A DNA stretch of 41,577 bases. Source: a virus. The position numbers and the translations under genes were made by a program. This document shows positions 1,571-33,938 of the stretch, piece after piece (position 1 is the first letter of the stretch; each line of letters begins with the position of its first letter). The notes under the pieces are model-generated. The model worked only from the letters and a program-made list of their open reading frames with translations. It was not told the DNA's origin and ran no database searches. The stretch is taken from positions 1 to 41,577 of the IMG/VR virus record IMGVR_UViG_3300032820_000028; one strand, written 5' to 3'.

Positions 1571-1767
1571 GGGCTGTTTCAGGAACAGCCTCTTTGGGGA
1601 GAAGTGTTTGTGTACCGGGATGTCTTCCGGTCTGAAGATAAGATGTCAATATATTGATCTAATGAGGTACTTCTCCGGGAGTTTTTGTTTATAAAAACAT
1701 TTTATCCTTTCATACCTCTCAATCTTAATCAAGACTGACTGATGGAAAGACATCACCCCTTTGGGGT
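1571..1767 (+). ncRNA. Candidate structured RNA element in a gene-free stretch
   Basis: The 231 bases between the genes at 1561 and 1793 hold no plausible plus-strand gene and are more GC-rich than their surroundings. Perfect stems are visible: 1572-1578 with 1584-1590 (GGCTGTT/AACAGCC); 1598-1605 with 1669-1676 (GGAGAAGT/ACTTCTCC), enclosing two inner hairpins at 1614-1631 (ACCGG/CCGGT, 8-base loop) and 1641-1660; 1681-1686 with 1693-1698 (GTTTTT/AAAAAC); and 1755-1759 with 1763-1767 (ACCCC/GGGGT). The 8-base loop GATGTCTT (1619-1626) is perfectly complementary to AAGACATC at 1747-1754, just before the last hairpin, so a pseudoknot or long-range tertiary pairing is possible. It may be a stable ncRNA, a leader regulator of 1793-2271, or an origin; the sequence alone does not decide. 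The strand is assumed from the neighbouring genes. Confidence 0.45.
1755..1767 (+). promoter_or_regulatory. Short GC hairpin in the leader of the small-gene cluster
   Basis: ACCCC-TTT-GGGGT is a perfect 5-bp stem 25 bases before the ATG at 1793, followed by an AT-only stretch. CTTTGGGG also occurs at 1592-1599. It could be the 3' boundary of the structured element or a weak terminator; it is followed by TAATTAAATAAATA rather than a T-run. Confidence 0.35.
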
Positions 1768-1986: not shown

Positions 1987-2190
1987 ATGGAAAAAGAATT
2001 AGAAGAATTATTACATATAGGTTGGTGGTTTAGTTTATCACCAAAAGGAAAACAATGGACATCTAGAATTTATAGAAAAAATAATAAAACTAAAAAATGG
2101 GTAACTATAGAATCTAAAACCCATAGAGATGTAGAAAAAGCTATGACTTGGGTATCAAATAAACTAGCACCTAAATTAATACCAGAATAA
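1987..2190 (+). CDS. Small hypothetical protein
   Basis: 67 residues, lysine-rich, beginning MEKELEELLHIGWWFSLSP. The pattern of a Trp-rich start, two short beta-like stretches (WTSRIYRKN, KKWVTIESKT) and a helix (DVEKAMTWVSNKL) suggests a compact alpha/beta fold. No family is recognised. It begins 5 bases after the preceding stop, and the following 26-residue gene starts at the base after its own stop, so the three are probably co-translated. Confidence 0.6.
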   Translation: MEKELEELLHIGWWFSLSPKGKQWTSRIYRKNNKTKKWVTIESKTHRDVEKAMTWVSNKLAPKLIPE

Positions 2191-2271
2191 ATGACAGCAT
2201 TCAATCTGGTATTAATATTTTTTGCTTTATTATTTTTTTATGCTAAAAGTACAGAAGATAAAAATAATTAA
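2191..2271 (+). CDS. Tiny single-span membrane protein (26 residues)
   Basis: ATG at 2191 directly abuts the TAA of the preceding gene. The frame gives 26 residues: MTAFNLVLIFFALLFFYAK and a short polar tail STEDKNN. The hydrophobic stretch of about 14 residues between Asn5 and Tyr17 can just span a membrane. Its TAA (2269-2271) overlaps the stop codon of the convergent gene on the other strand (2268-2270). The abutting start, the clean hydrophobic/polar partition and the presence of another small one-pass protein two genes upstream support it as real. Function unknown. Confidence 0.5.
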   Translation: MTAFNLVLIFFALLFFYAKSTEDKNN

Positions 2272-16517: not shown

Positions 16518-19500
16518 TTAGTAACAGCTCTTTAGTCTGTCTATAAATTGTTTTTCATTATCCAGATTATTTTGATTTTCAAAGATAGTAAATAATTCAT
16601 TAATAGTAGTTATATCTAAAGCATCCATTAATTTAAGTTTACCTCTACTGTCAAGACTATTCCAGTATTCAGTGATAAGTGGGTATTGATCACTATCATC
16701 AGTCTGTTCACTAGTATCTTTAGACTTATTTAATATTGCATCTAAATCAACAAATCTTCTGTTATCTATTTCAAACCCTCCTTCAGCATCAGTTTCAAGA
16801 GTAGATTCAATTGAATTCTCATCTTGTTCTTCTCCTTGCTTCTTAGTTGCTGTATATCCTTTATCAGTAGCCTTTACATCATCAGTTTCAGAAAAAGCTT
16901 TATTTTCTCCTCTCTTAGCATCAAAGTCAAACATTTCTTCAAAGCCTTCACCTATATCATCTCCTATACCAAGAACAAGATCATCCCATCCTTCTGCTTT
17001 ATCTTCTTCATTCTGTCTTAATTGTTTATATGTTGGTCTTTGTCCATATAAGTAAGCCGGTCCTTTCTGTTGACGTGATCCTAATTGATCATATTTAACA
17101 TATTCAGCAATTTGACCTAAGAACTCTCCATCATTATTCATTACATCAAACATGTCTACATTAATTGTTCCATCCCCTGGTTGGATCATTCCTTCTAGTT
17201 TATAATGTCTATATTCTTTATTACCTCTTAAGTCTTCATCTATAACAGTAAGAGCATACGGGAAGTTTGCAATTATTCTAGGTCTTCCTTTTTTATCTGA
17301 TACAGTATATCCTATTCCTAAATCTTTAAGTATATCCTTAGTTGTATTAAGGGCACTCAGTTTTTTACCAGTTAATGGTTTACCATTAGCAAACATTGAA
17401 TTTTTACCTAGATCAAATAATGCGTTAATTCTAAGAGTACCCTCATCTAATCTTTCATTTGTTCTATTGTTAAATGTCTTTGATGCATGTTTAGCTCTAT
17501 ATTTCACATAATCTCTTGTTACATATCTTCCAGTTTCTTTATTAGTAACAAATTCTGTCTGAGCCATTTTTAAACCATCAAGCATTGCTCTATCAATTAC
17601 AGTAAGACCTTGACTAATTGTGAAGTCTGAATGACTCATTAACATTTTAATTAGTTTATCATTTAAATGATTCTGAGTAAGAGATGTTATTACTAACTCT
17701 CTCATTAAAGCAAGTGGATCTATATTTTCACTTGTTTCTTTGCCTTCTATAACTACACCATATCCATCCTTCTTCTTATACTTATCATATGTTTTCTGAT
17801 CAAATTCACCTGATCTTAAAGATTGAAATGCTTGTTCTACACTGCTATATTTTTTTGTTTTTCCTTTAAAGTCATATTTAAATTTACGTTCAGCAAGGTT
17901 AGATAACAATTTAGTATTAGAGTCACCTTCTTCTGCATAATAATTAATATTTATTGTTGACTCAGGAATAATAGCTTCTTCAGCATCAACAACAAATGAT
18001 TGATCTAATTTCTTTGAATTAATCTGAGTGATAAACTTATTACTATTTACACCTTCAGTAAATCCTACTATAAGTTCATATTGTAATTCTTTATATGTAG
18101 CACCAAATATACGGTCATATAGTTTATCTGAAGGTTTACTGTCTAAGAATAACTTATGAACAGGAGTAACAACATTAAGTTGATTTTGAAGTAAAGATGC
18201 AGGAACTACATTTATAAAACTTTCAGAATTAAATCTAAGACCATCTTTTACTGTTAAATAGTTAATTAAATGCATCAGATCTTGTCTTGTGTTAACATCA
18301 CTATATAACTCTAACATTGATGATTGTAAATTATTTAATTCTTCATCAGTGAATTGTGTCCAGTTACTTGTTATTAATCTACTAAACCCTTGTTTATTAT
18401 CCTCATGTTTTGTATCTATAGCTACTATATGTTCATTTAAGAAATAATTATCTCTACCTTTTGATGTGATGTATCTTCTCATCCTATCTACAACAGATAT
18501 TACTGTAAACTCTTCACCTAGTGCATCATATATATATCCATTACTTAAGGATGCAAGTTGATCAGCATGTGTGTCATCAAACTTTAACCATTGTATATAT
18601 GCTTTACCTGCTAGGTAACTTGTTATTTCACTAGATAATACTCTTCTTTGTTCAGAGTTTATTCTTCCTTGATTTAGATTATTTAATAGAGAGTCTCTTA
18701 ATCTTAAAAATGGGGTTGTTCTATTTAATAAGACTTTAGGTAAAACTTTTTCATTAATTTCTTGTAATATTTGCCAATATGTAGATTGGAATGTCTTACC
18801 ATCATTAAATATACTTCTAACATCAAAAGGTATATTTGTTTTACTAAATTCTTTATTGTTTAGATCTAATCCTAACTCTGCAGCTGCATCATAAGCATCC
18901 TCTATTGCTGCTGTATCTTGTCCAGTTCCTTTTGCAATATTAAGTAGTACACCAACATTTCTTACAAAATCTGTATATGCTTTTGCTTTTTGGAATTCTT
19001 GTAATACAGCTAAGTCAAATAATGCTTGATCATTTGTTAATACTTCAAAGTTAGATCCTTTAGCTTCTTTAACATATCCTGCTTTTGTACTTCCTGCACT
19101 ACGGTTAATTTTTGTTTCATTAATAAATTTAACCATTTCTTCTGTGGATACTTCTGGATTTGCTTGAGTTTCTTTATCAGTTGCTTTACGTTTAAGAACT
19201 GATTTTTCAATAAAAATAATTCTATCATTTAATCTCTTATCAAAACCAGCTTCCATCTTTCTTTTTGTACCCAACTCTTCGTAAATTAAATTAATAGCAG
19301 GGTGATTTATCATTACTACTGCTGTATTTATATCTACTCCCATAGCAAGTAAAGTACCTAATACTGGAAGAGCTGGTTTAACTATACCTAATTTTTGTGC
19401 AAGTTGTTCATTTGCATTATCAACAATACCAGAAATAAGTGCAGAAATAGCAAATTGTTTTCTATATAAGTTAGAATCTTCTTCTCCTGTCTCAGTATTA

Positions 19501-22500
19501 ATAGCATATTTCTTTACAAAACCCTTATATGGTTGACCATTAAGCTCAAGAACTTTAATAAATTCATCATTTCTTAATTTAATTGCATGTTCACTCAGTA
19601 CATTAAGTGGTAAGTTAGGTGCAACAATAGATCCAATTCCTCTTGAGAATTCTTTATTACTATTAAATGCTACAGCTTGCCCAAGTAAGTTATATGGATC
19701 ATATTCTTGAGCTTTTCTTTCTTCTGCTAATCCAGGCATCTGTGATTCAAAAAATTCCCAAGCTTCTTCTAATGGTGTAACTACTGCAGATTGATATGCT
19801 GGTGCAACATGATCACCTTTACCAGGTTTTGTTTTACCTGGATTACCTAATAAAGCATATTTAAGATCTAAAGCATCGTTATTAAGAGCTGCATCATATG
19901 GTTCACGTCCATATTCATCTCTATATTGATTATATTCTTCAAGAGTTGATGGTAATCCTATTAACCATAATCCTCCTTGAATATCTTCATTTCTTTTCCA
20001 TAATTTTAAAACTTGTTGATCAGTAAGAGGATCTGATATAGAAAGAGCTTCATGAATAATAAAAGCATTAATCTTTGGCTGGACTATGTTTCTATTTCCG
20101 TCATTATCAATTATCATTTCTCCATTTAATATTTCATCTACTGTGTATTCTGTACCATTCTCTTTATTAAAACTAGTAATTGTTCTCTCAGTAACTGCAG
20201 GTACAAAATCTCCTCTATCTGCCCAAACTTCTGTTGCCATGAATATATCACTCTTCTTATTTCCATATTGAGTAATTATATTTCTTATATAATCTGCATA
20301 TTGTTGTCTTCTATTTGCTCCTTTACCATACTCTTTAAACACTCCTTTCTTATAATAAAATTCTTTAAGTTGTGTATATAGTTTATCAATATCAAAATCC
20401 GCTCCTGATATTTCAATTAGTCTTTTAGAGAATATTGCTGTAGATCCCATAACTGCTGGTAAAAAGTCAACCATTATTAAATTTACAGCTGAATGATCAT
20501 CCTGTGATGGGATTCTTATTCCAAAGGCTTTAGCAATCACATCTGGAATTTTATCTCCAGGTTTAATATGATCCATAACAGATTTAAAATGAGGAGACAT
20601 CATAAATTCAGAACCTGTTACATCTGTTGGTTCACCTTTTTCATTATATATCATTACATCATGTCTAAGAACATCTAGATAAATATCACCTTCTTCCATA
20701 TTTACAAATGTCTCAGCATTTTCATCTGCAAATTCTTTATGTTGTATTTCTACTCCTTTTGGTCTATAGTTTGTTTCCCAATCCTCACTTCTAATAACAT
20801 CCCATCTAATAGGTTGACCTGTTTCTTTATCTAATTCCACAACTTTCTTAACTACTTTAAATCCAAATTCAGGCATTAATGCTAAGGATGTTCCTGGTAA
20901 ACGTTCTGATAGAACTCCTTTACTAAAGAATGTTAAAAATAATTTTTCAAAGTGTTTTTCTGTTATCTGATTATTTAAGTTAAACTTAGGTGCACCATTC
21001 TCTGTCTCAAATAGATCTAACATTTGTACTTTAGCTTGAGAAGCTTCAAGCGCATTCTGTGCATAATCCACAAAAGCTTTAAGATTTACAGTTGCTTTTC
21101 CTATTTCTTTACTTTTTGCAAGTTCATTTAAAGAACTTTCCATTGTAAATATTAAATTTCTTCTTCTAAAATATTTATTAGCTAATCTTGCTTGTACAGT
21201 CTTGTGATACTTATCCATAACTTCTCTCATGGAATATGACTTATTATCTATTTTAATAGTCTTACCCTCAATTTGTTCAGAAGGAAGCTTATGTTTCATT
21301 TGAACAGCATCTACAATCTCCAGCTTATTAGAAGGATTAATCATTTGTCTTCTTAAGTATTTAGCTTGAATAGTAGTAAACATATTAGATACATCTGTTT
21401 GACTGAATGCATCTTTAGTATCAACTACATTTATCTTAGCTGCTTTAGATGCTGACTCAAAGGCAGCCATACTAAATGTTTCTGTATCTGCTTCTTGAGC
21501 TTCTAATTTTAAACGTAGATCATGCCACTCTTCTCTACCAATTCTTGCAACCCATTCTCCATTTATTTTTACAGATGTAAGTTCTGGTATTAAAGTAACT
21601 ACAGACATTTTTAAATATGTAGTACCATCAAAATACATGAATTTCTTAGAATTTAAGAATGCATCTAGTTTCTTTAATCCTTTATTCTGTACATGAGCAA
21701 TATCAAACTTAATCATTCCACTGAGATTATTCTTATTCTCAACAAACTGTGTGTGCATTCTATCAATAACATGTTCAGGAACAACTGCTCTCTTCTTACC
21801 AGAAGCAATATCCTTCTCAATTCTTTGTTTAACTGTTACAGGATCAACATCAAACATTTCATAATATGTTGTGAATTCTTTCCCTGACATCTTTTTAAGG
21901 TTCTCTATCAAAGCTGTTCTACCAAAAGGTCCCTCTTGCATTGTATTAGTAGCATCAAATACTACTAGTTTACCTTGTCTTAATCCTGTTGCTGCTCTCT
22001 CATGTGCTAATTTAAATACTAATGCATTATTAGACTGATCAGAAACATCAGTTAATTCAGCTCTAATTGCATCAGGAGAAATAACTAATACATTTCTTCC
22101 TTCTGCTCTTAACTTGTTGATCCAAGTTGACTTACCACTCCCTGGTATTCCAATTGGTAAGATTAGACCTCCCTGAAATTTATTATCTCCAAATACTTCA
22201 CTACTAGATATTTTATCACCATTAGCTAGTTTCTTCATTAATTGTGCTTGATTCCAACTTAATCTACCATCTCCAAAAGCTGTATGTAAGAAAGCTTTAC
22301 TTGTCATTACAGCAAATGCATCAGCTGTTTGTCCTGGTTTACCAACATCACCTGTACCAAAAATATCATTATATAATTTTTGAAACTTAGGATCTCTAAT
22401 AGTTAATAAGTTAATATCCTTATTCTTATGATGAATACCTAATTCAGGAGCTATAACATCAGTTGCAAAGTTAGTACCTCCACCGTGTTCTCCTTTAGCT

Positions 22501-25500
22501 CTCTTAGTTAAATTTACAAACATATCTGTAAAACTCATTGCAGCATCACCTGTAGTATGTTTTGCAAATCTTCTTGCATTTATTGAAAAGTTAAAAAATA
22601 ACTGAGCTAAATTATATTCTCTATTTCCATGTTTAATGTTATATAGTTTTTCTAAGTAGTCTGTTTCTTGAGTTGTTGAATATGTAACACCACCTGCACT
22701 ACCTGTATCTACATCAATTAATCCTTCACGGACATCAAGAGGTAATGATGCCATGATATTTTGTTCATATAACATGTTTGTAAAGTCACCAAGTTCTTGC
22801 ATTTGTTTTTGCTTAACTCTTTCCTCAAGTGTTGTTGTTACTTTTTTACCATTTGCATCTGTATAAGTAATAGGTTCTTTAGAAGCTACTGCCCAACTAT
22901 CTCCTGCAAGAGCTCTTCTTTCCATTTCTTCTTTAACAGATGTGTCTAATGTATAAAGCTTATTTGCTTTAGATTCTGCAGTTTCTCCTACCCATGTATA
23001 TCCTATATCATCACCAACTATAGATTTTGTTTTTGCATCAACTATTTCTTGAGCTAATCCTTCTCTAACCAAGCTTTCCCAAACACGCTGTGCTTTAGCA
23101 GATACAATAAGATTGTCTGATATTAATCCACCAAGTTTTTTAGCAGCTGCTTTATAAAGTTTAACTCCTAAACCTAATCTTCTAAATTCTGGTATTATTT
23201 CTACATCAATTATTTTATTACTTCTAGAATCTACAGCTAATACTCCTATATTATTTCCTTTTACCTTTAAATTAAAAATAACTGCATTTTCAACAGTCAG
23301 TTGTTCCTCTTTGGTCATCTTAGAATTAATTGCTTTCTTAGAGATAGTATTTATAGATAATATTATAGGAGTTCCTGAATCATATGAATCTCTTAAAGAT
23401 TTTCTCTTTTCTTTATCAATTAATATACTAGATTCCTCATATTCTTTTTGAGTCAGATATTCTCCTTCTTTAATTTCAAATTCAGAAACTTCAGATCTAC
23501 TATCTAATTCATTAGTTAACTGTTGTGCTAACTCATATTCTTCTCTTTCTACAGCATCATCTCTTAGTTCTGTTAGTTCTTGAACTGTTCTTTCAGAAAT
23601 ATTATATTCAGCTGTTGGATCAATTATACCTGCTTCTCCTTCAATGTTTGTATTATATCTTAGAATATAGAAATCTTGCTTTCCATTAACAAAGTTTACT
23701 AGGTTCCAACTAAATGTCCAAAACTTCTTTTTTCTATAAGTAAAAGATAATGGTTCTTTTTTACCTCTAGCTTCTGGTCTAGTTCTATAAACCATAGTAC
23801 CAAGATCTTCTATAACTCTAGCTAAGTCAACATCTTCTACATTTGATAAACCCTTATTTGTTATTGCTACATATTCACCACCCGCTTTATCTCTTTTTAT
23901 TAATTCAACAACAGCTGTAGTTCCAACAGCTATTCTTACTTTTCCAGATTGAGCTTTACTTAATAATGTTATTTTTTGATTTCCTTCTAGTATACCTTCT
24001 ATAGTAACATCTGCTAATGAAGGAGGTTGAACTCTAATTGTTGATTTAATATTACCTTCTCTTATATTCATCAAGTTACCTGTATTAAAGAGTTGTAACC
24101 CTCTCATTTCTCCAGTATTAAATCCTTCTATAGTTCTTTCATCTTTTGTCTCAAGATCGTTTTCTTTTTGTATTCTTGCATATTCTTCTTGTATATCATT
24201 GATATATAGATCTAGTCCTTCTTCTGTTAATTCTATCTCACCCTCATCTGTTTGATGTATCATATGATTAACAGGCATAACAACCATGTCTAAAGTACTT
24301 GCATCTGAAAGAATCTTAATTGGAACAGGAGCCATTACAAATTTTTGTCCATCTTTTGTTTCAAATACAGGAGTTTTCTTTAATGGAGAAGATTTATCAT
24401 AAGTGTATGTTGCCATAGCTAACATATTCTTAATAAAATCTTTCATAGATAAATCACCATAAGATACACCATTACCAGAACCTAATTCAAATTCTCCAGT
24501 ATCCATTCCTAAAGGTGCTAGTTTATGACCACTTAATCTAATATGTCTTATCTCACCTTTTCTTACAGCTTCTAAGAATTTTTCATCTTTTATTAATGAA
24601 TTAAATGTGAAATTATCATCATCTTGAATCTTCTTAATCCATTCATTACCTCTCATTTCAGCAATTGTTTCTAAATGAAATGTTGGAACTTGATGTCCCC
24701 AAATTTGATGATTATCTGCTGACATAAATGTTGATTCCCCAACAGATTCATCAAACTGTGCATTATTTGCTGCAAGTTTTCTTATTCTTCCTTTTACTCC
24801 ACCTTTCTCAAATCCTAAACTTTCTCCTGTTTCTTCATCAAACAATTCTTGATAGTCTCTATATAGGTGTTCTCCCTTCTGAAGTGACATTTTGATTTCA
24901 CGTATTGCTTCAGTATCTACAGCTTCTATATAATTATTTAATATATACAGTGCTTGTTGTTGGTTTGTTCTGTCTTCTTCTGCTATATTATTTGTAACAC
25001 TATATTTAATGTATTCACTTCTAAGACTCATTCCTAATGCTTCATTAAGTACAGAACTAATGTAGTTTGCTCTTCCTTCAAGTGAATCATCTTTTGAAAC
25101 ATCATAATTCTTTATCTTAGATAGTTGTTCTGTTGTTAATCTATCTGCAATAGATGTCTCTTCTAGTAAGTCTATTAAATCATCTAGTGCTCTTATCACT
25201 TCTCTTTGTAATTCTGAATCTTTAAGTAATCGTGGAGCTTTTTGAATAAATTTAGCAGCCCAAACTTTTGTTTGTGAATGCTCATCATCTTGTCTATTAG
25301 CCTCATACATATAATATATACCTGATTCTCTTCCTCCTCTAATATCTCTATGTACTATTGCATTAGTGGTTCTATATAATCTAAAAGCATTTACAACTCT
25401 TTGAAACTTAATTGCATCTTTAACATTTTCACCTAATTGCCAATCATCTGATAATACTTCTGACTCAGTTAATCCTATATCAGTTAAGAATTTATCTACA

Positions 25501-28500
25501 AAAGCTCTAGTGTGTTTATTATCTGATCTTGAGAACATTACCATCTTCTTTATTAATTCTTGATCATTTCTAGAATTTTTTACAGATTTTAATATTCCTC
25601 TATATACAAACATGAAATCAACAGGAACTGTTACTCTTTCTCTGAGGTGTTGAGGTGCTTCAGGATTAATAAATTCATTACCATATTCATCAACTTCTGT
25701 TAATGTAGTTAATCCAATATATTGACGTACCCATTGACTAAGTTTACTCCAACCACCAATCATTGATTGATCCTTACTATATTGTGAAGTGGATCTTAAA
25801 CCATACTCTTGTGCTTCTTCAGATTCTTCTATATCATTTTCATTTTCTTTTACTTCAAATGCTCCTATATAACTTAATACAGCATCTTTTATTAAACTTT
25901 CATGTTCGGCTAATGCCTCATAATGTTTTTTTAATTTAGGAGCAAATTGGATAAAACCTTCTTGTTCTTGATAAAACTCAATTCTATCTGTTACATTATA
26001 CATATTTACAAAATCAGAGATGGTATTATCAAGAAGAGCTGAGTCAGCAATACTGCTCTTTTCTCTTCTATTCATAAACAATTGACCTATTGTAAAGATC
26101 ATTTTCTGAGCATCATCTGCAGGAAGATAAGATGTAACATCCATTGTTCTTTCTTCTCCTGTTCTAGCATCCGTACTAGTTGTAGTGATTACACCTGTTG
26201 GTATATTAACAATAGCAAAAGCTACAGGTTTGTTTCTATATGTATTTCCACTAGAAGATTCAGCAGCTCTGGTAAACATATTATTCTTAGTAGCTTTTGT
26301 TCTAAAAACACCTGAGTCTATTTCATTAAATAAATCATTTATAGATTTTTCACGTGTGTATCCTAAAAGATGTTTAATGAAATCCATTATTTTCTGGAAT
26401 AAACTTCTTGTCTCAGTAGATACTGATTGAGGATTCATTTTCCAGTTATCAAATTGATTAGCTAAATATTCTTCATATAAAGTTTCTTCAAGTTTTGCTC
26501 TTGTCATCTCTGCATACTTAGGATGAACTTTTCTCATTTCTTTTAGTGCATCATTGACATTTTTAACAACTACACCATGTGTTAGCTTTATCCCTCCATC
26601 TCTCATCTTAGCTCTAACTTCTTTTTTAGCTAATCCTAAATAATGTTTAATCTCTTGATCTGTAAGTAACATTCTAAATACCCCATGAAATGCCTCATGA
26701 TATTTAAGAGGAGTATATTTTCCAACAGATATCTCACCTTGCAGTTCTGAAATTGTCTCTCCATGCATCAAGAATCTCCCAACTTTATACTTTGCCTCTT
26801 TAAGTTTAATACCCAGCTCATCTATCTGCTGTAGGTGATCTACTCTCGTATACAGTTGTTCAGGTAAAGATTCCTTTGCCCAAGCTATAAAATTATCTAT
26901 TTTTTCAACATCATAACCATCCCAAACACCTGGTATAACTGCTAAAGCACTATTACTATTAAGATCTTCATATTCTTCAATTAGTTTTAAATATACTGGA
27001 TCATTCATTACAGTTAAATATGCTGCTCCTTTAGCTTGTGCGGATGTTTGACCTTGTTTTACAAGTTCCTCTATTATTTCATTTGTTTTTATATTATAAT
27101 AATCTTCAGCTTTTTGTTTTGCAATATTAACTTTTTTTCTATATTCCTCTTTTACAGATTCATCCATTGTTTCTTGTGCCTCTGCTCTAGCTAATGCTTC
27201 ATCAATTCTCTCTTTAGCAATATTTTCATATAGATTTGCCTCACCTGGATTTAATCCTTCTCCTGATTGAATTTTTCCAACAATCCCTGCAATTACATTA
27301 CTAGGTATAGATTCAGGATTTTCATATGCATCTGCTATAGTTTCTGGTGTTACTTCTGCCGTTTCTATAATTTCTGTAGGTGTCTCTTCTTCAATAATTG
27401 TTTTTGCATTTCCTTCATTTGCAAGTCTTCTTATTGTTTTTAATCTATCTGCTGTTGAATCCATACCAGCAGAATCAGAAGCTGACATAAGAAGTTTTAT
27501 ATTCTTTCTTACTCTTGCCTCATATGATGTTTCTGCAGGTAATAAATATTGTGTCAGGATCTTTTTAGAAGAAATACCTTTATCTGGAATAGACTCTTTG
27601 AAAGCATTTACTGTAAGATTTAACTTAATCTTGTTAGCTTCTTTGGTTATTGCTGTATCATTTTGTGTTTTAGCAAAATTCTTTGAATCTGTAGATAATT
27701 TATTAATATAATTTATAAGATCTCTTGCTGTTTTAATCTTAGCAAGTTCTTCTCCTTTAACTAATCTCTTTCTTTCAAATATAGCAACCTTACCATCTTT
27801 CTTTTCAAAAGCCTTTTTATTGTATAATGTTATTTCTAATTCACCATAAGGTGTAACATTGAGTTGAACATCTGTACCAACATCATTAGCTATAAATAGA
27901 GCTTCCATGAGTTTATCATTATATTCATGGTTGAATGATGTTGATTTTGGTTTAACTTTATCATCTTTTGTTTTAGTAATATTCTCATCTAATGTTTTCT
28001 CTACTTGTTTATGTATACTACTTATTATATTATTTGCTTTTTCATCAGACATTGTTGGTGCTTTCACCTCAATAAGACTATATGATCCATTTGGTAATTG
28101 TACAACGGCAACATATGCCCCTAATTTTGCTAATTGATTTCCTCTTGTACGTACTAATTCATCTACAATATCTTCATATTGTTTTCTTTGACTACGTTTT
28201 ACATTAGTTATATGTCTATCTAATGTTTTAATTTTACCACCTGATGTTATACTATAATCACGTCTATATTGTAAGATCCAATATGTACTTTTTCCATCAA
28301 TATATTTATATTCTAAATCTTCAAACTTTACTCCTTTTGTTCCTTTTTCTACAAATGCCTCATTTCCTCTTGATATTTTAATATCAATATAATCTAAATC
28401 AGATAACTTTAAATCTACGGTAGAACCTTCTCCTTTACCTTTAAGTGCATTATTGAATTGTTCATATAAATAGTATGCCTGTATATAATGATTTCTTATA

Positions 28501-31500
28501 TCCTTAGTTACTTTTGTTATATTTTGGTTACCATATGTTCTAAATAGTTTTAAAACTTGTGATTCAGTAATTACTTCTGGATGTATTGCCATATCCATAC
28601 TATCTAAAAGAATAAGTGATGTTGGTCCATTCAAGTATCCTAAACTTGTTTTTCCATTCAGAACTTCAACTGAATACTCTTGTGCATGTTTAAGAATATT
28701 TTTATTTTCAGCATATTCTTTACCATGATTATCAGCAACAGTTTTTTTATCAACTGGAACACCTTCAGCGTGTGCCCATTTAGGACCATATGATATTCTT
28801 AATGTTAACCCAGCTAATTCTGCTGGTTCTAAGTTTCTAAGCATTGTTTGTTGACGTTCATCTGCTTCTTGCTTTGTCTCAATATCTTCTAGATTATCCT
28901 CTCCTTTATAATAACCACCTGTATCTTTTTTCTTTTTTCTTGTTGAACTAATATATAATGGTTCTTCTGGTCTAAGTTGACTTACTTTTTCTTTTGCCTT
29001 TTTGTCTATAGATTGATCACTTGATCTACTCCATTCTTCACTTGTAAACTTACCTGTCTTAATTACCTTTGTTCTTTTTATTTTCTTTTTAAAGTCTTGT
29101 ATAGGTGTTACATATAAGTCATTACCATTAAATGTATCCCGTTTGCTAATCACAACCCAACTATTATCTTCTTTATCTTTAAGTACTTCTCCATGTTTAA
29201 ATGCTTTACCTTCAAATATAATACTTCCTCCTTCAGTAGATTTATTTATTAACTCTTGTTGTTTCTTTTTTGCTTCGTTTAAAGCATCCTCTCCTTCAAT
29301 GGGTTTTAATATTAAACTATTCTTATAGTCATCTGTGATGTCATACATGTGTCTTTCATTTCCATCCTCATCTACTAGTGTTTTTCTAATTATATTAACT
29401 CCTTTACCTAATAAAACAGTTTCTCTTGCACCTTTATCAAGTGTGGATTTTTGAAAACCTTTAGGTTCTTTTACTGCAATATCAGTATATGTTAATGCAA
29501 ACTGTGAATGATATATTTTTCTAACTTGTGGAGTAGTTCTATTATTTTCTAACCATTCACCGAAGTCTTCAGTGGAACGTTCTAATGCATAGATTTTATA
29601 TATTTCAGTTAAAGCTTTATATATTGCTTTTATTTTTGGTTGTTCTCTCCATTGTTCTATCTCCATATAATCCTCAGTAGTATCACTAAGTTTCCAATTT
29701 CTTATATAGTTTGCATGTCTTCTGTTTAATACTGCTTTAATAAAGGAAGGGACACGTAATCTATTATCATCAACACCTTCTTCCATCTCTTCAGCATCTT
29801 TGATACGCTGATCTAGGTTCTCTTCTTGTTTTTTTATAGGATCCTCTACTTGTTCTTCTTCTACAAAATCTTGAAATGATTTAACTTCTTTTTTGACGGT
29901 TTCCTTTTCTGCTTTTTTCTCTTCCTTCTTTTCTTCTTTTTTAAATAAACTCTCCATACTCTCTTTAAAGTTAATACGGATTGTGTTTAACTGGCTATAT
30001 TTTAAAGCATCAGTCTCTTTAGTTAACATACCATTTTCTGTTCTGTATGTTCTAGGAATATTGTTTTGTGGATCCTTTAAGAAGGCTTCCATTTCTTCAT
30101 CAATAGGATATATACCTGCATTAGCTAAATCATTTAAGAATACATTAACTGATTGTGTTCCAACCCATTTCCTTAATCTTTCCTCAATTTTTCCTCTATT
30201 CTCTCTATAAGCTTTCAGCATACCTAAGGCCATTCTGTCTTGCATTTCTAATGCGTGATCAGGATTAATCATCATGTTTATAGCCTTATTGAATTCTATA
30301 GATCTTCCTTTAAGTGCCTTATGATCCATAATACCCTTTATGAAATCCTCAAATTTAGTCATATCTACAATACCATCTCCACCTTCTTGTTTAGATAAAT
30401 ATTCTACATATGCTTGAATAACAGGTCTTAACTTACCAACCTTTCTTCTATCAAAGAATCCAAAGTTCTTCTCAACAGATTTGATCTCATACTGAAGAAT
30501 TCTTCTTGCTATTTCTTGTTTCTTTTGTTCCTCATCTAGACTGTCATCTTTATTAACCTTAGCTTTTATTAACCTTAATACTTCTTTAGAATCAGTGGTT
30601 TTAATAACATTCTCTTTATCTGTAAGAACTTCAAAAATCTCTTTTAATAAAGCTGATCTCTCTTGTTGATCTAAATATTGCTTTCTTTCATCTTCAGACA
30701 TCTGAAGCATTGCTTCATCCTCAGTTAATTCTTCTCCAGATTTTATTCTTGTTTTAGTTTCTGTAGTTTCAGCTTCAGTTTCTGAAGATTTTTCTGCTGC
30801 TCTTTCAGAATCTACTCTTTCTTTTTGATCTGCAGTTAATCTGTCCCACATTTTAGGATTCATAACTGTACTATAGTCTTCAACTTTTCCTACTGTATAT
30901 GTATCACCAGAAGGAATCATCTTATCTGTTTTAGAATCTCTTACTTTTACTTCAGTATATAATTTAATAGCTTCTTCATTAGAAATATTATCTCTCTGTT
31001 GTATTTTAGCATCAATTACAGTAGCATCTACCCAGAAGTCATCAGCTTTCATAGTCCATACTACACTACCGTCTAATCTTGTTGTAGCTCTAAATATAAT
31101 TACATCTCCATCCTCAGTAGTAACAGTAAATTCTTCTCTTTTAACAGGAACTCTATTATCATCATATCTTGGTTTTTCTTCTGTTGTTTCTTCTGCCTCA
31201 AATATTTCTCTTTCATTAAGAGCAGCTTCTTCTGCATCATATTTCTCCTGAACTTTTGTTACATTAGCATAGTCTGCCTTTCCAGCTGCCTTTAATTTAT
31301 CTAACTCAGCTTGTCGTCTTTTTGCAATATCTTGATATAGTCTTTTATACTCACTTTTACTTATCATTTCTATCTCAAAATCCTCTGTTGTTCTTGCTAA
31401 CTCCATCTCCACCTCAAGCATAGACATTTCTTTTACTAAAGCTGAAATGTTTGTTAGAACATCAATATCTTTACTTTGTATATTCTTTGATACACCACTT

Positions 31501-33938
31501 TTAAGTAAGTCCCCATAAACAGAGTTGTATCTTTCTACAGCTCGTTTCATCATCTGAGTATTAAACATAAACATCATCTTGAACTGATTATACATAACTT
31601 CATTTATATATTCATATGTATATTCATCAGTTCCTGGCTTATACTTATTTCTGTCAAAAGGGTTTGTTAATTCTTGATTTAATTCTTTCCAAGCTTTTTC
31701 AGTCTCATCTATTCTTTCTACTGATGCCACCATTCTACTTCTTACTTTATCAATACCATCCTGACTTGACTCTTCTGGAAATGCTTCAGCTAAGGCTTTG
31801 TCATCTAACTCTAAGAAATCTTGAAACTGAGCTTTAAAGAAGTGTGACTTTCCTGTCATATGCAAGGAATTTAAGTGTGAATATATTGATGCATCTTTTG
31901 CATCATGATATTCTAATGCACTATATCTTTGATCAGCTTCAAACATTATTTCACTCAAATGTTTTTGTGTAGCAGAATTCAATTTAGAAATATCAAAATA
32001 TCTACCTACTCCACTTGCAGCATCATCATACATCTCTTGTAAGTGTTTAACTGCAATATCTAAGTTTTCTTCTTGCTGTTCTCTATGTGCTTTCCATTCT
32101 TGTTTATTAGTTGCATAATGAAATCCACTAGGAATAGTCTTAAACATTATATGTTGTGGTATTTGTACTAATCCTCCCATTACAAATCCTGATGCAAATA
32201 TTTCAGCTCCTTGCTTAGTCATCATTGCACTAACACCTCTACCTTTAGAAGCACTCCATTCTGAGGAAGCTTTTTGAGCATCCCATCCTACAACTACATT
32301 ATCATTATGGAGGTTTGTATAATAATCCTTCATTGCAACTGCAAGTCCTTCTTGATAAAGTTCTTGAAACCCTTCAGCTAAATTTGCTCTACCATATAAT
32401 AATCCAGCTCCTAATATTTGTTGCATGTTACCTTTAAATCCTCTTGCCATAACTCTTGGTAACCACCATTTACTTCCTTTCTTTATTGCTTCCTTACCTG
32501 TTTTCTTCCCAGCAAAAGTAAGTACTCTTCTACCCATACCTCTTGCTGCTGCCGCAGTTGCTGCTGCTAAACCTCTAAATCCTTTTAAAGCTGTTCCTAT
32601 TACTAATTTATTTGTTAAGAATATAACAGGTGCATTATATATAACTGTCTGAAATTCAGCCTCTTTTGAATGTTTATAAACATTTTCTAATGCTTCCATA
32701 CTAGGATCTCCCCCATTTAATTTTGCTCTTTCTTCTAAATATAAGTTGTCTACCATTTCATTAAATACCATACCACCCTCAAGTTTGGATTCTGCTACAG
32801 CTAAATTTACAGCTCTAAGATCTCTGTAGAATGCTCCAAAATATTGTGCGTTTTTTGCAAAACCTTGTATACCGTTAGCAACATTTTTTGTAGTATTAAG
32901 TGTTCTCCATGCTGCAGCTGTTTCTGGAGCAATCATATGAGCACCAAATCTTAACCCAGCTCTCCAATAGTCTTTTGCATTTTCTGCTTTTCTTAATGAT
33001 CTTATTAATGCACTACCACCACTAACAGCTCTTGTTAATCCAAAATTATTATAAACTCTTGAAAAGTATTTAGGTATGTCAAATGCTCTCTTTACATTTT
33101 TACCAGTTCTTGCAACTGCTACTGCACCAACACCAGGATTTCCACCAGATAAAGCTGTAACACCTGCTAATACTAGCTCTTCTAGGGCAATACTTGTTAT
33201 AATACCCATTGTAAATCCAGTTTGTAAAAGTGTGTTATTTACCCAATCTCCACCACCTTTTCTCATTGCATCATGAAATGATACAGCACCTAAATAATCA
33301 CCTTCTAAGTAGGTTCTTTCACCACTTAGCATATCTCCTATTGCTCTCCAACCAGATGAAAATGCTGGCCAAAATAATTTACCATAATTATCTTGCATTC
33401 TAGAATTACGGTCCCAAAAGTCTTCACTTACCTTATATAATGCTTCATTATTTCTAAAAGGATGAAACCCAACTTCTTGGAAATCAGCTGATCCCTGCCA
33501 TTTATCAAAATTAAAACCTTTGGTGCTAAAATGAATAGTTTTAGGACTAGCACCAAAATAAGCAGGTGCGGTATTTGTTGAATAGGTAAGCATGTTATTA
33601 AAATCTCTTCTTCTTTGTTCAGCAATATTAGCTACTTTACTTTTTTGTTGTTGTTCTGGAAGAGGTGGAAGAAGTTCTTGATTAATTCCTGGAGCATAAG
33701 ATGTAGGAATCTGGTTAATAATTTGTGCAGTAGCTTGCCAATTATTTACCATATCATTAGCAGGACTTAATGTACCTATTGGAAAAGTAAAATAATTATT
33801 TTCAAGTGCCTCTATATCAACATTTTCCATTGATGCATCATGAAGAGGTACAGCTGTAAGTTCTTGAGTATTACTAACTGTTTCATCACTTATCCCAGGT
33901 ATTGTACTATTTGCTTGGTTTTGATCAAATTCTGCCAT
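16518..33938 (-). CDS. 5,806-residue polyvalent virion protein: RNA-polymerase-like core with peptidase, GNAT, P-loop kinase and NADAR domains
   Basis: One unbroken frame of 17.4 kb. N-terminus (1-110): Gln/Pro-rich tail. Residues about 220-620: Ala/Gly-rich hydrophobic helices (for example GITSIALEELVLAGVTALS) that could cross or disturb a membrane. Residues 620-2350: mainly charged helical sequence with Lys/Glu coiled coils. About 2395-2500: zinc peptidase with H2414-E-A-F-H2418. About 3535-3625: GNAT-like FRRLGLGVKLY. About 3925-4080: P-loop kinase (G3930-x-PGSGKST). About 4140-4890: segment resembling crAss-like virion RNA polymerase, with D4514-F-D-I-D4518. About 5335-5480: NADAR. C-terminus: acidic. 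The start ATG overlaps the upstream stop (TAATG). Polyvalent proteins are known to be carried into the cell with phage DNA and to bear many effector domains; the combination here, and its transcription role, are inferred from motifs. Confidence 0.75.
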   Translation of the reverse strand: MAEFDQNQANSTIPGISDETVSNTQELTAVPLHDASMENVDIEALENNYFTFPIGTLSPANDMVNNWQATAQIINQIPTSYAPGINQELLPPLPEQQQKSKVANIAEQRRRDFNNMLTYSTNTAPAYFGASPKTIHFSTKGFNFDKWQGSADFQEVGFHPFRNNEALYKVSEDFWDRNSRMQDNYGKLFWPAFSSGWRAIGDMLSGERTYLEGDYLGAVSFHDAMRKGGGDWVNNTLLQTGFTMGIITSIALEELVLAGVTALSGGNPGVGAVAVARTGKNVKRAFDIPKYFSRVYNNFGLTRAVSGGSALIRSLRKAENAKDYWRAGLRFGAHMIAPETAAAWRTLNTTKNVANGIQGFAKNAQYFGAFYRDLRAVNLAVAESKLEGGMVFNEMVDNLYLEERAKLNGGDPSMEALENVYKHSKEAEFQTVIYNAPVIFLTNKLVIGTALKGFRGLAAATAAAARGMGRRVLTFAGKKTGKEAIKKGSKWWLPRVMARGFKGNMQQILGAGLLYGRANLAEGFQELYQEGLAVAMKDYYTNLHNDNVVVGWDAQKASSEWSASKGRGVSAMMTKQGAEIFASGFVMGGLVQIPQHIMFKTIPSGFHYATNKQEWKAHREQQEENLDIAVKHLQEMYDDAASGVGRYFDISKLNSATQKHLSEIMFEADQRYSALEYHDAKDASIYSHLNSLHMTGKSHFFKAQFQDFLELDDKALAEAFPEESSQDGIDKVRSRMVASVERIDETEKAWKELNQELTNPFDRNKYKPGTDEYTYEYINEVMYNQFKMMFMFNTQMMKRAVERYNSVYGDLLKSGVSKNIQSKDIDVLTNISALVKEMSMLEVEMELARTTEDFEIEMISKSEYKRLYQDIAKRRQAELDKLKAAGKADYANVTKVQEKYDAEEAALNEREIFEAEETTEEKPRYDDNRVPVKREEFTVTTEDGDVIIFRATTRLDGSVVWTMKADDFWVDATVIDAKIQQRDNISNEEAIKLYTEVKVRDSKTDKMIPSGDTYTVGKVEDYSTVMNPKMWDRLTADQKERVDSERAAEKSSETEAETTETKTRIKSGEELTEDEAMLQMSEDERKQYLDQQERSALLKEIFEVLTDKENVIKTTDSKEVLRLIKAKVNKDDSLDEEQKKQEIARRILQYEIKSVEKNFGFFDRRKVGKLRPVIQAYVEYLSKQEGGDGIVDMTKFEDFIKGIMDHKALKGRSIEFNKAINMMINPDHALEMQDRMALGMLKAYRENRGKIEERLRKWVGTQSVNVFLNDLANAGIYPIDEEMEAFLKDPQNNIPRTYRTENGMLTKETDALKYSQLNTIRINFKESMESLFKKEEKKEEKKAEKETVKKEVKSFQDFVEEEQVEDPIKKQEENLDQRIKDAEEMEEGVDDNRLRVPSFIKAVLNRRHANYIRNWKLSDTTEDYMEIEQWREQPKIKAIYKALTEIYKIYALERSTEDFGEWLENNRTTPQVRKIYHSQFALTYTDIAVKEPKGFQKSTLDKGARETVLLGKGVNIIRKTLVDEDGNERHMYDITDDYKNSLILKPIEGEDALNEAKKKQQELINKSTEGGSIIFEGKAFKHGEVLKDKEDNSWVVISKRDTFNGNDLYVTPIQDFKKKIKRTKVIKTGKFTSEEWSRSSDQSIDKKAKEKVSQLRPEEPLYISSTRKKKKDTGGYYKGEDNLEDIETKQEADERQQTMLRNLEPAELAGLTLRISYGPKWAHAEGVPVDKKTVADNHGKEYAENKNILKHAQEYSVEVLNGKTSLGYLNGPTSLILLDSMDMAIHPEVITESQVLKLFRTYGNQNITKVTKDIRNHYIQAYYLYEQFNNALKGKGEGSTVDLKLSDLDYIDIKISRGNEAFVEKGTKGVKFEDLEYKYIDGKSTYWILQYRRDYSITSGGKIKTLDRHITNVKRSQRKQYEDIVDELVRTRGNQLAKLGAYVAVVQLPNGSYSLIEVKAPTMSDEKANNIISSIHKQVEKTLDENITKTKDDKVKPKSTSFNHEYNDKLMEALFIANDVGTDVQLNVTPYGELEITLYNKKAFEKKDGKVAIFERKRLVKGEELAKIKTARDLINYINKLSTDSKNFAKTQNDTAITKEANKIKLNLTVNAFKESIPDKGISSKKILTQYLLPAETSYEARVRKNIKLLMSASDSAGMDSTADRLKTIRRLANEGNAKTIIEEETPTEIIETAEVTPETIADAYENPESIPSNVIAGIVGKIQSGEGLNPGEANLYENIAKERIDEALARAEAQETMDESVKEEYRKKVNIAKQKAEDYYNIKTNEIIEELVKQGQTSAQAKGAAYLTVMNDPVYLKLIEEYEDLNSNSALAVIPGVWDGYDVEKIDNFIAWAKESLPEQLYTRVDHLQQIDELGIKLKEAKYKVGRFLMHGETISELQGEISVGKYTPLKYHEAFHGVFRMLLTDQEIKHYLGLAKKEVRAKMRDGGIKLTHGVVVKNVNDALKEMRKVHPKYAEMTRAKLEETLYEEYLANQFDNWKMNPQSVSTETRSLFQKIMDFIKHLLGYTREKSINDLFNEIDSGVFRTKATKNNMFTRAAESSSGNTYRNKPVAFAIVNIPTGVITTTSTDARTGEERTMDVTSYLPADDAQKMIFTIGQLFMNRREKSSIADSALLDNTISDFVNMYNVTDRIEFYQEQEGFIQFAPKLKKHYEALAEHESLIKDAVLSYIGAFEVKENENDIEESEEAQEYGLRSTSQYSKDQSMIGGWSKLSQWVRQYIGLTTLTEVDEYGNEFINPEAPQHLRERVTVPVDFMFVYRGILKSVKNSRNDQELIKKMVMFSRSDNKHTRAFVDKFLTDIGLTESEVLSDDWQLGENVKDAIKFQRVVNAFRLYRTTNAIVHRDIRGGRESGIYYMYEANRQDDEHSQTKVWAAKFIQKAPRLLKDSELQREVIRALDDLIDLLEETSIADRLTTEQLSKIKNYDVSKDDSLEGRANYISSVLNEALGMSLRSEYIKYSVTNNIAEEDRTNQQQALYILNNYIEAVDTEAIREIKMSLQKGEHLYRDYQELFDEETGESLGFEKGGVKGRIRKLAANNAQFDESVGESTFMSADNHQIWGHQVPTFHLETIAEMRGNEWIKKIQDDDNFTFNSLIKDEKFLEAVRKGEIRHIRLSGHKLAPLGMDTGEFELGSGNGVSYGDLSMKDFIKNMLAMATYTYDKSSPLKKTPVFETKDGQKFVMAPVPIKILSDASTLDMVVMPVNHMIHQTDEGEIELTEEGLDLYINDIQEEYARIQKENDLETKDERTIEGFNTGEMRGLQLFNTGNLMNIREGNIKSTIRVQPPSLADVTIEGILEGNQKITLLSKAQSGKVRIAVGTTAVVELIKRDKAGGEYVAITNKGLSNVEDVDLARVIEDLGTMVYRTRPEARGKKEPLSFTYRKKKFWTFSWNLVNFVNGKQDFYILRYNTNIEGEAGIIDPTAEYNISERTVQELTELRDDAVEREEYELAQQLTNELDSRSEVSEFEIKEGEYLTQKEYEESSILIDKEKRKSLRDSYDSGTPIILSINTISKKAINSKMTKEEQLTVENAVIFNLKVKGNNIGVLAVDSRSNKIIDVEIIPEFRRLGLGVKLYKAAAKKLGGLISDNLIVSAKAQRVWESLVREGLAQEIVDAKTKSIVGDDIGYTWVGETAESKANKLYTLDTSVKEEMERRALAGDSWAVASKEPITYTDANGKKVTTTLEERVKQKQMQELGDFTNMLYEQNIMASLPLDVREGLIDVDTGSAGGVTYSTTQETDYLEKLYNIKHGNREYNLAQLFFNFSINARRFAKHTTGDAAMSFTDMFVNLTKRAKGEHGGGTNFATDVIAPELGIHHKNKDINLLTIRDPKFQKLYNDIFGTGDVGKPGQTADAFAVMTSKAFLHTAFGDGRLSWNQAQLMKKLANGDKISSSEVFGDNKFQGGLILPIGIPGSGKSTWINKLRAEGRNVLVISPDAIRAELTDVSDQSNNALVFKLAHERAATGLRQGKLVVFDATNTMQEGPFGRTALIENLKKMSGKEFTTYYEMFDVDPVTVKQRIEKDIASGKKRAVVPEHVIDRMHTQFVENKNNLSGMIKFDIAHVQNKGLKKLDAFLNSKKFMYFDGTTYLKMSVVTLIPELTSVKINGEWVARIGREEWHDLRLKLEAQEADTETFSMAAFESASKAAKINVVDTKDAFSQTDVSNMFTTIQAKYLRRQMINPSNKLEIVDAVQMKHKLPSEQIEGKTIKIDNKSYSMREVMDKYHKTVQARLANKYFRRRNLIFTMESSLNELAKSKEIGKATVNLKAFVDYAQNALEASQAKVQMLDLFETENGAPKFNLNNQITEKHFEKLFLTFFSKGVLSERLPGTSLALMPEFGFKVVKKVVELDKETGQPIRWDVIRSEDWETNYRPKGVEIQHKEFADENAETFVNMEEGDIYLDVLRHDVMIYNEKGEPTDVTGSEFMMSPHFKSVMDHIKPGDKIPDVIAKAFGIRIPSQDDHSAVNLIMVDFLPAVMGSTAIFSKRLIEISGADFDIDKLYTQLKEFYYKKGVFKEYGKGANRRQQYADYIRNIITQYGNKKSDIFMATEVWADRGDFVPAVTERTITSFNKENGTEYTVDEILNGEMIIDNDGNRNIVQPKINAFIIHEALSISDPLTDQQVLKLWKRNEDIQGGLWLIGLPSTLEEYNQYRDEYGREPYDAALNNDALDLKYALLGNPGKTKPGKGDHVAPAYQSAVVTPLEEAWEFFESQMPGLAEERKAQEYDPYNLLGQAVAFNSNKEFSRGIGSIVAPNLPLNVLSEHAIKLRNDEFIKVLELNGQPYKGFVKKYAINTETGEEDSNLYRKQFAISALISGIVDNANEQLAQKLGIVKPALPVLGTLLAMGVDINTAVVMINHPAINLIYEELGTKRKMEAGFDKRLNDRIIFIEKSVLKRKATDKETQANPEVSTEEMVKFINETKINRSAGSTKAGYVKEAKGSNFEVLTNDQALFDLAVLQEFQKAKAYTDFVRNVGVLLNIAKGTGQDTAAIEDAYDAAAELGLDLNNKEFSKTNIPFDVRSIFNDGKTFQSTYWQILQEINEKVLPKVLLNRTTPFLRLRDSLLNNLNQGRINSEQRRVLSSEITSYLAGKAYIQWLKFDDTHADQLASLSNGYIYDALGEEFTVISVVDRMRRYITSKGRDNYFLNEHIVAIDTKHEDNKQGFSRLITSNWTQFTDEELNNLQSSMLELYSDVNTRQDLMHLINYLTVKDGLRFNSESFINVVPASLLQNQLNVVTPVHKLFLDSKPSDKLYDRIFGATYKELQYELIVGFTEGVNSNKFITQINSKKLDQSFVVDAEEAIIPESTININYYAEEGDSNTKLLSNLAERKFKYDFKGKTKKYSSVEQAFQSLRSGEFDQKTYDKYKKKDGYGVVIEGKETSENIDPLALMRELVITSLTQNHLNDKLIKMLMSHSDFTISQGLTVIDRAMLDGLKMAQTEFVTNKETGRYVTRDYVKYRAKHASKTFNNRTNERLDEGTLRINALFDLGKNSMFANGKPLTGKKLSALNTTKDILKDLGIGYTVSDKKGRPRIIANFPYALTVIDEDLRGNKEYRHYKLEGMIQPGDGTINVDMFDVMNNDGEFLGQIAEYVKYDQLGSRQQKGPAYLYGQRPTYKQLRQNEEDKAEGWDDLVLGIGDDIGEGFEEMFDFDAKRGENKAFSETDDVKATDKGYTATKKQGEEQDENSIESTLETDAEGGFEIDNRRFVDLDAILNKSKDTSEQTDDSDQYPLITEYWNSLDSRGKLKLMDALDITTINELFTIFENQNNLDNEKQFIDRLKSCY
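17499..17936 (-). other. NADAR-like domain within the 5,806-residue protein
   Basis: Residues about 5335-5480. INYYAEEGDSNTKLLSNLAE (L5344 on) followed by KFKYDFKGKTKKYSSVEQAF and a FDQKTYDKYKKK segment match the NADAR order: LSNxAxRxF, G-x-xY-S-VE-xA-xQ. Members of this family remove ADP-ribose from guanine bases and are found as antitoxins to guanine-modifying DarT enzymes. Confidence 0.65.
19269..21521 (-). other. RNA-polymerase-like (double-psi beta-barrel) region within the 5,806-residue protein
   Basis: Residues about 4140-4890. GIRIPSQDDHSAVNLIMVDF and ISGADFDIDKLY give a DxDxD metal loop like NADFDGD of the cellular beta-prime subunit. About 300 residues earlier VQMKHKL (K4215, K4217) is a candidate for the conserved lysines of the other barrel. 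After the DFDID come FSRGIGSIVAPNLPL and ISGIVDNANEQLAQKLG, which I recall from crAss-like giant polymerase proteins. Only motif evidence. Confidence 0.5.
21699..22166 (-). other. P-loop polynucleotide-kinase-like domain within the 5,806-residue protein
   Basis: Residues about 3925-4080. Walker A GIPGSGKST (3930-3938, K3936), then VLVISPDAIRAELT, LVVFDATNTMQ (the Walker-B-like strand with the D-x-TN signature of the T4 Pnk/AAA_33 group), YEMFDVDPVTVKQRIEKD and VVPEHVIDRMHTQF lid. Substrate cannot be told; nucleic-acid 5' ends or a small molecule are usual for this group. Confidence 0.75.
23064..23336 (-). other. GNAT acetyltransferase-like segment within the 5,806-residue protein
   Basis: Residues about 3535-3625. 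GVLAVDSRSNKIIDVEIIPE leads to FRRLGLGVKLYKAAAKKLGG, in which R3587-x-x-x-G is the acetyl-CoA-binding motif A (R/Q-x-x-G-x-G/A: RRLGLG), and a later VWESLVREGLAQEI suits the last helix and strand. Confidence 0.6.
26439..26756 (-). other. HExxH zinc metallopeptidase domain within the 5,806-residue protein
   Basis: Residues about 2395-2500. KYHEAFHGVFRMLL places H2414-E2415-A-F-H2418 in the zinc-binding helix; about 65-75 residues on, AKLEETLYEEYLANQFDNW can supply the downstream acidic ligand. This form occurs in polyvalent phage and plasmid proteins. It may trim the giant protein itself or cut host proteins. Confidence 0.65.

Follow-up and report, generated by a model that had tools for sequence, protein, structure and literature searches.

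A pseudoknotted RNA with a fixed-loop end hairpin in a marine flavobacterial-type phage and its relatives in many unrelated phages

Phage-encoded structured RNAs are a known kind of molecule. Group I introns are built from helices P3/P7, the P4-P6 domain, P8 and P9. The ornate phage RNAs GOLLD and ROOL are also structured and found near tRNAs, although they are far larger than the RNA described here. The theta (HDV-like) ribozymes of gut phages resemble it in being compact, pseudoknotted and sometimes placed beside tRNAs, but they differ in topology and fixed bases and are located at tRNA 3′ ends. The putL and putR RNAs of HK022 are likewise non-coding phage RNAs near operon starts, but they differ in size and topology, being ~70 nt long with two stem-loops and no crossing A/P helices described (PMC9378689). 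Finally, P22G is a 204-nt sncRNA of phage P22 (21,873-22,076), reported in 2026 from RNA-seq of infected Salmonella at 488 RPM and absent from uninfected cells, to which its authors assign no function (PMC13397905, Table 2).

The window analysed here is the whole 41,577-nucleotide stretch of IMG/VR record IMGVR_UViG_3300032820_000028, a linear virus record of 41.6 kb that encodes a ribonucleotide reductase and has very large virion-type genes. The phage is of a marine flavobacterial type, and the relatives of its RNA come from marine and flavobacterial phages. On the minus strand, 16518-33938 is a single virion-type open frame of 5806 codons with virion-type neighbours of 1875, 1354 and 1101 codons; the 1875-aa protein had no PHROG match. 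The RNA lies within 1562-1792, between the genes of a 143-aa protein (1130-1561) and a 62-aa protein (1793-1981), where a convincing reading frame was looked for and none was found. Only three tiny plus-strand genes lie 3′ of it, and gene direction switches at ~2190-2270 (plus-strand genes to 2271, minus-strand genes from 2268).

A sequence-only reading of 1571-1767 had reported five perfect stems and one exact 8-base match, all of which are present where it placed them. The ACCGG/CCGGT stem (1614-1618/1627-1631) encloses the entire loop GATGTCTT (1619-1626), of which AAGACATC (1747-1754) is the exact reverse complement. That reading considered the match unlikely by chance. The chance of a perfect complement to a given 8-base loop in the rest of the 197-base span is ~0.3%, or ~1-2% over five loops, which makes the match suggestive but not decisive. 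Of 200 dinucleotide shuffles, 195 fold less well than the whole stretch (z -2.1) under a folding model without pseudoknots.

Comparison among loci leaves little room for doubt that 1598-1754 encodes a conserved pseudoknotted RNA of ~160 bases, whatever its role. The fold is a double pseudoknot in which helix A crosses helices P and X, while strand K of the H1 loop pairs with K′ after P, and the order of parts is constant: A, H1, P, X, A′, H2, X′, P′, K′, TGACT, H3. On the plus strand of the window, helix A joins GGAGAAGT (1598-1605) to ACTTCTCC (1669-1676). Hairpin H1 (ACCGG-GATGTCTT-CCGGT, 1614-1631) has a covarying stem, seen as ACCGG/CCGGT, ACTAG/CTAGT, ACCAG/CTGGT, CACTGG/CCAGTG and CTTCG/CGAAG, and its loop holds K (GTCTT, 1622-1626). 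Compensatory changes tie K to K′, the AAGAC at 1731-1735 immediately 5′ of TGACT (AAGAC/GTCTT, AAGGC/GCCTT, GAT/ATC). Helix P pairs GATAAGAT (1637-1644) with ATCTTAATC (1722-1730), leaving one bulged base, and covaries (TAAGAT/ATCTTA, TAATCT/AGATTA, ATAGAT/ATCTAT). Helix X, which also covaries, joins GAGGT (1664-1668), immediately 5′ of A′, to ACCTC (1714-1718); elsewhere it reads ACGGA/TCCGT, GCGGG/CCCGC, GACAGT/ACTGTC or ACTTGT/ACAAGT.

Hairpin H2, GTTTTTGTTTATAAAAAC (GTTTTT..AAAAAC, 1681-1698), keeps its position and varies in sequence among loci. The element ends in TGACT (1736-1740), whose TGAC is constant in 36 loci, most search patterns having demanded TGACT, and in hairpin H3, GAT-GGAAAGAC-ATC (1741-1754), with a stem of 3-5 bp. 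Two further hairpins flank it. The terminal hairpin ACCCC-TTT-GGGGT (1755-1767) is confined to close relatives (L001, L003, L119, L127), and other loci have a T-run or a tRNA in its place. The upstream hairpin GGCTGTT/AACAGCC (1572-1590) is present in L001 and lacking in L224, and it is placed outside the conserved element because in L224 the gene upstream has its stop codon where helix A starts. The crossing-helix order resembles that of group I introns, with A/P corresponding to P3/P7, H1 to the P4-P6 domain, H2 to P8 and H3 to P9. Unlike these introns, however, the window RNA has a single short hairpin at H1 in place of a P4-P6 domain, and no guanosine site was seen, nor flanking exons or an Rfam match. 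As a side observation, H2 of Elemovirus (L273, L274, L275, ~2465-2485) and of L094 (~3780) is GGTTAA(C/T)TCATAATTGAC, with a 7-base loop resembling the tRNA-Met anticodon loop (CTCATAA). In addition, a GTGAGTCAAA-like string is conserved between P and X in L304, L285, L119, L231, L292 and L272.

Homologs were collected with the neighbouring 143-aa protein as query, which gave 80 viral loci, and in L001, L003 and L004 the window RNA lies directly downstream of the gene for this protein. Pattern scans with the end motif and the H1 hairpin gave L119, L127, L224, L231, L271, L272 and others. All five helices covary over the 36 distinct loci counted: 99.9% of cells are paired across 21 pairs, with 328 two-sided changes, compared with 35-39% and 47-67 two-sided changes in a control with the partners slid, the percentages for A and P being circular since these helices were selected for pairing. 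H1, K/K′ and H3 were set by position, with the loop register chosen by the author in L094 and L273. Helix A was picked by eye for the counts in L003 (TGAGGT/GCCTCA, over the one preferred by the search) and in L288 and L291 (TATGCC/GGCATA, TACGCC/GGCGTA).

Shuffles provide the fair test for A and P. With H1 fixed in the search, crossing A/P helices around H1 occur in 38 of the 38 family loci examined, among which there are 36 A sequences, 26 P sequences, 18 H1 stems and 12 H3 stems. The combined p of the A/P search is 1e-22 over loci that are not fully independent, and about 2-3% of shuffles score at least as high as the window itself. In a search upstream of H3 sites, the A/H1/P arrangement beats most shuffles in the window group, L201, L094, L138 and Elemovirus. 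The homologs thus bear out the earlier proposal of a structured, pseudoknotted RNA in which the ACCGG/CCGGT loop engages in long-range pairing.

The partner proposed for this loop was wrong, as homologs put K′, not AAGACATC, opposite it. Loop and K′ change together (GUC/GAC, GCC/GGC, AUC/GAU), whereas loop and AAGACATC vary independently, the very outcome that the sequence-only reading had named as its refutation. In L119, L231 and L271, K′ changes from AAGAC to AAGGC alongside a change of the loop to GATGCCTT (L119, L231) or GAAGCCTT (L271), yet H3 keeps AAGAC. The H3 stem is CTC/GAG in L281 and ATA/TAT in L314, while the loop stays ATGTCTT. Among 11 sequences with an 8-base loop, K/K′ is 100% paired versus 90.9% for the loop/AAGACATC helix, in which U8 is broken in three (the GCC members), outer positions are broken in more, and no compensation for the change to GCC was found. 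Over 36 sequences, K/K′ shows six two-sided changes and 99.1% pairing versus 94.0% in shuffles, members fetched with GACTGACT having K′ = GAC by design; the sole exception is L201, with loop UUUC.

A prediction set before two scans, that GAT-TGACT members would have an AUC loop and GGC-TGACT members a GCC loop, agreed with the outcome. All four GAT members that share the family architecture (L094, L526, L497, L525) have AUC in the H1 loop; L094 was known beforehand and L526 is close to it, and the new cases independent of L094 are L497 and L525. In the GGC group, L119, L231 and L271 have this architecture; their loop is GCC, and they were already known before the scans. The remaining GGC and GAT matches have other scaffolds and are uninformative on loop pairing, and GGAAAGAC was constant in H3 throughout, as the patterns demanded. 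A pairing of the H1 loop with AAGACATC, perhaps as a switch alternative to K/K′, would draw on the exact 8-base match in the window and in relatives with a GAT/ATC H3 stem and loop GATGTCTT. The comparative data contradict it, and it was rejected as extremely improbable. AAGAC occurs twice in the element, at 1731-1735 and 1747-1751, and AAGACATC doubles as the 3′ half of the local hairpin GATG-GAAAGA-CATC (1741-1754); the match arises because AAGAC is common to K′ and the H3 loop.

Members of the pseudoknotted family end in TGACT followed by a stem, GGAAAGAC and the second stem strand, which the window carries at 1736-1754. The H3 stem has 12 distinct versions, all paired, while the loop GGAAAGAC and the preceding TGACT are fixed. 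With the same pattern, the stem is fully paired at 35 of 44 phage sites versus 11 of 104 sites in a comparison set of 84,980 bacterial and archaeal genomes (Fisher p 3e-16). Paired stems also make up 36/50 of the phage GGC variants and 12/28 of the GAT variants, against a random expectation of about 2-5%. A single copy is present in 25 of 30 records, and exactly one in the window.

The module TGACN-[stem]-GGAAAGAC-[stem] is spread more widely than the pseudoknotted family. Its scaffolds include tRNA arrays (L118, L141, L150, L151) and a holin-leader group in Pseudomonas-type prophages (phiAH14a), and it also precedes major head protein genes by about 80-115 bases (L444 ~1003, L466 ~2327, L522, L523). 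The reading frame before the site in L444 and L466 appears to use the TGA of TGACT as its stop codon, so that these two loci would have no upstream RNA scaffold. Several contigs with H3 have other features of interest. A TGACA/TGACG hairpin variant (TGACA-GCTT-GGAAAGAC-AAGC) forms a second RNA in L124, L168, L141, L159 and L165, and permuted tmRNA genes (RF04321) occur in L141 (8755-9020), L151 (1518-1779) and L125 (1431-1783). The minus-strand annotation p55 of phiAH14a (AMW64515.1; L530, 3777-4307) runs across the H3 RNA and is probably spurious.

Members of the family are usually intergenic, enriched in phages and present once per record. Their neighbours vary and include genes for RNR, helicase, DNA polymerase, topoisomerase, chaperonin and anti-repressor as well as tRNA genes. 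Of 120 H3 sites, eight have a tRNA starting within 60 bases (22-44) after TGAC, and 12 have a tRNA ending 300 bases or less upstream. The RNA lies between tRNA and replication genes in all three Elemovirus isolate records looked at, and it is also found on Flavobacterium genome contigs (L343, L386, L401).

The lambdoid phages provide the link to a transcribed RNA. P22G carries GGACUGAUGGAAAGACAUC (PMC13397905), and GACTGATGGAAAGACATC is identical in P22G and the window, with a G before it in the former and a T in the latter. Like the window RNA, P22G and its lambdoid homologs (HK620, HK106, E. coli prophages) are intergenic phage RNAs with GACT and then GAT-GGAAAGAC-ATC near the 3′ end, but they have GGACT in place of TGACT. 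Upstream of H3, the P22G scaffold is unrelated in sequence to the window RNA, with no alignable sequence by inspection. P22G may belong to the window family or may have only the H3 module in common with it; the crossing A/P and K/K′ helices are those of window-type loci. About 125 bases hardly vary among HK620, HK106, P22-like phages and E. coli prophages; this core, which in P22 corresponds to P22G, has mosaic sequence on either side, and its end falls exactly at GGACTGATGGAAAGACATC. The lambdoid module is matched in 1104 of 5426 complete E. coli genomes, about one in five. A coding role for H3 in E. coli prophages (frame ILCGGGLMERHR) was rejected because divergence of the flanks sets in precisely at H3 and the region is expressed as RNA in P22. 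A link to terminase or packaging was also dropped, as it holds for lambdoid phages and fails elsewhere.

The family is absent from the RNA libraries searched and is spread over many unrelated phages. The window gave nothing above the gathering thresholds of Rfam 15, a search that included group I introns, hammerhead and HDV-like ribozymes, GOLLD, ROOL and tmRNA, and 1540-1800 gave only chance-level matches to eukaryotic families. In 16 related loci the only Rfam matches were tRNA and permuted tmRNA elsewhere in the loci, and HK620 matched no family even at E 1. GOLLD or another known large phage RNA was set aside on the Rfam result for these 16 loci. The hammerhead, whose core CTGATG-GAAA resembles, was also rejected: GAAA lies in a hairpin loop, the ACCGG/CCGGT stem competes and Rfam gave no match. 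A literature search for the H3 14-mer led to the P22 report alone (PMC13397905); most subscription journals and preprints were outside its scope, so an earlier description is possible.

Our leading reading, with a probability of roughly 0.4, is that the RNA acts in trans as a stand-alone molecule displaying H3 to a widely conserved host factor. A phage operon or tRNA transcript would be the source of a small RNA, either directly or by processing; the scaffold would protect it and hold TGACT and H3 out at its 3′ end. UGAC/GGAAAGAC would thereby be displayed to a host factor conserved across bacterial phyla, for which the RNA may act as a decoy or inhibitor during infection, with H3 as the presumed contact. 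The trans reading is favoured over a gene-specific leader by the single copy, the independence from neighbouring genes and the constant loops on varying stems. The sequence-only reading had offered control of the three tiny genes or a stand-alone RNA. Control of these genes is unsupported, as homologs of the RNA adjoin many different genes or tRNAs, and the stand-alone RNA is the better half of the proposal because the P22 relative, which shares the end hairpin, is seen as a discrete RNA of 204 bases. P22G is the only experimental sign of an H3 RNA as a discrete transcript, and it supports the stand-alone reading.

A cis-acting leader, promoting terminator read-through like HK022 put or serving as a translation or stability element for downstream genes, is a less probable but serious competitor. 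It would fit the frequent intergenic position of H3 30-80 bases before start codons and the L444 H3, 81 bases before the major head protein gene. Plausible operon heads are also seen, with the RNA before terminase genes in HK620 and before replication genes in Elemovirus, and a related RNA between NinG/Q-like genes and late genes in phiAH14a. Against this, neighbouring genes differ throughout, many Flavobacterium-type members have a T-run directly 3′ of H3, and in the window same-strand genes continue for only ~500 bases after the RNA before a convergent gene block. Put-type antitermination suits some loci but not the window, and put RNAs are described as ~70 nt with two stem-loops (PMC9378689); it is kept as a rival only. 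Somewhat less likely again is a self-cleaving ribozyme, a compact double pseudoknot cutting phage transcripts to release, for example, tRNAs or processed mRNAs. Fixed bases restricted to loops and joints (K, K′, TGACT, GGAAAGAC) with free helices are typical of small ribozymes, a following tRNA usually begins 3-6 bases after H3, and the theta ribozymes are a precedent for phages combining ribozymes with tRNAs (PMC10879173). However, theta ribozymes cut tRNA 3′ ends whereas tRNAs lie on either side here, no Rfam match was found with ribozyme families included, and P22G runs intact across H3, so no cut is seen near the fixed bases in P22.

Mimicry of rRNA, as a decoy for an rRNA-binding or rRNA-modifying factor, was suggested by exact 8-mers at functionally central 23S positions. 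GGAAAGAC equals E. coli 23S rRNA 2056-2063, and 23S also contains CTTGTCGG, AAGGTAGC and GATGTC of the H1 region, at 1942, 1927 and 2502; all four strings are prominent in the family, and in 23S they lie near the peptidyl transferase centre. Sharing of 8-mers with rRNA over the whole element does not clearly exceed that of dinucleotide shuffles (median p 0.22) and the 23S segments differ in secondary structure, and this reading was rejected as improbable. Counting against the leading trans reading, GUCUUU, the complement of the loop core, is absent from E. coli 16S and 23S rRNA.

That phages of distant hosts keep one loop constant while its stems vary freely implies a common target or a common chemistry. 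A tentative and broader possibility is that TGACT-H3 is the business end of a class of phage RNAs with several unrelated scaffolds that spans phages of Bacteroidota and Proteobacteria, tRNA-rich large phages and P22, and that would either catalyse a reaction or block a universal host machine such as the ribosome, RNA polymerase or an RNase. Such a class would have gone unnoticed because its stems and scaffolds vary. The end module recurs in the laboratory phages P22, HK620 and HK106, and since transcription of the P22 member is established, ordinary phage genetics can address its function.
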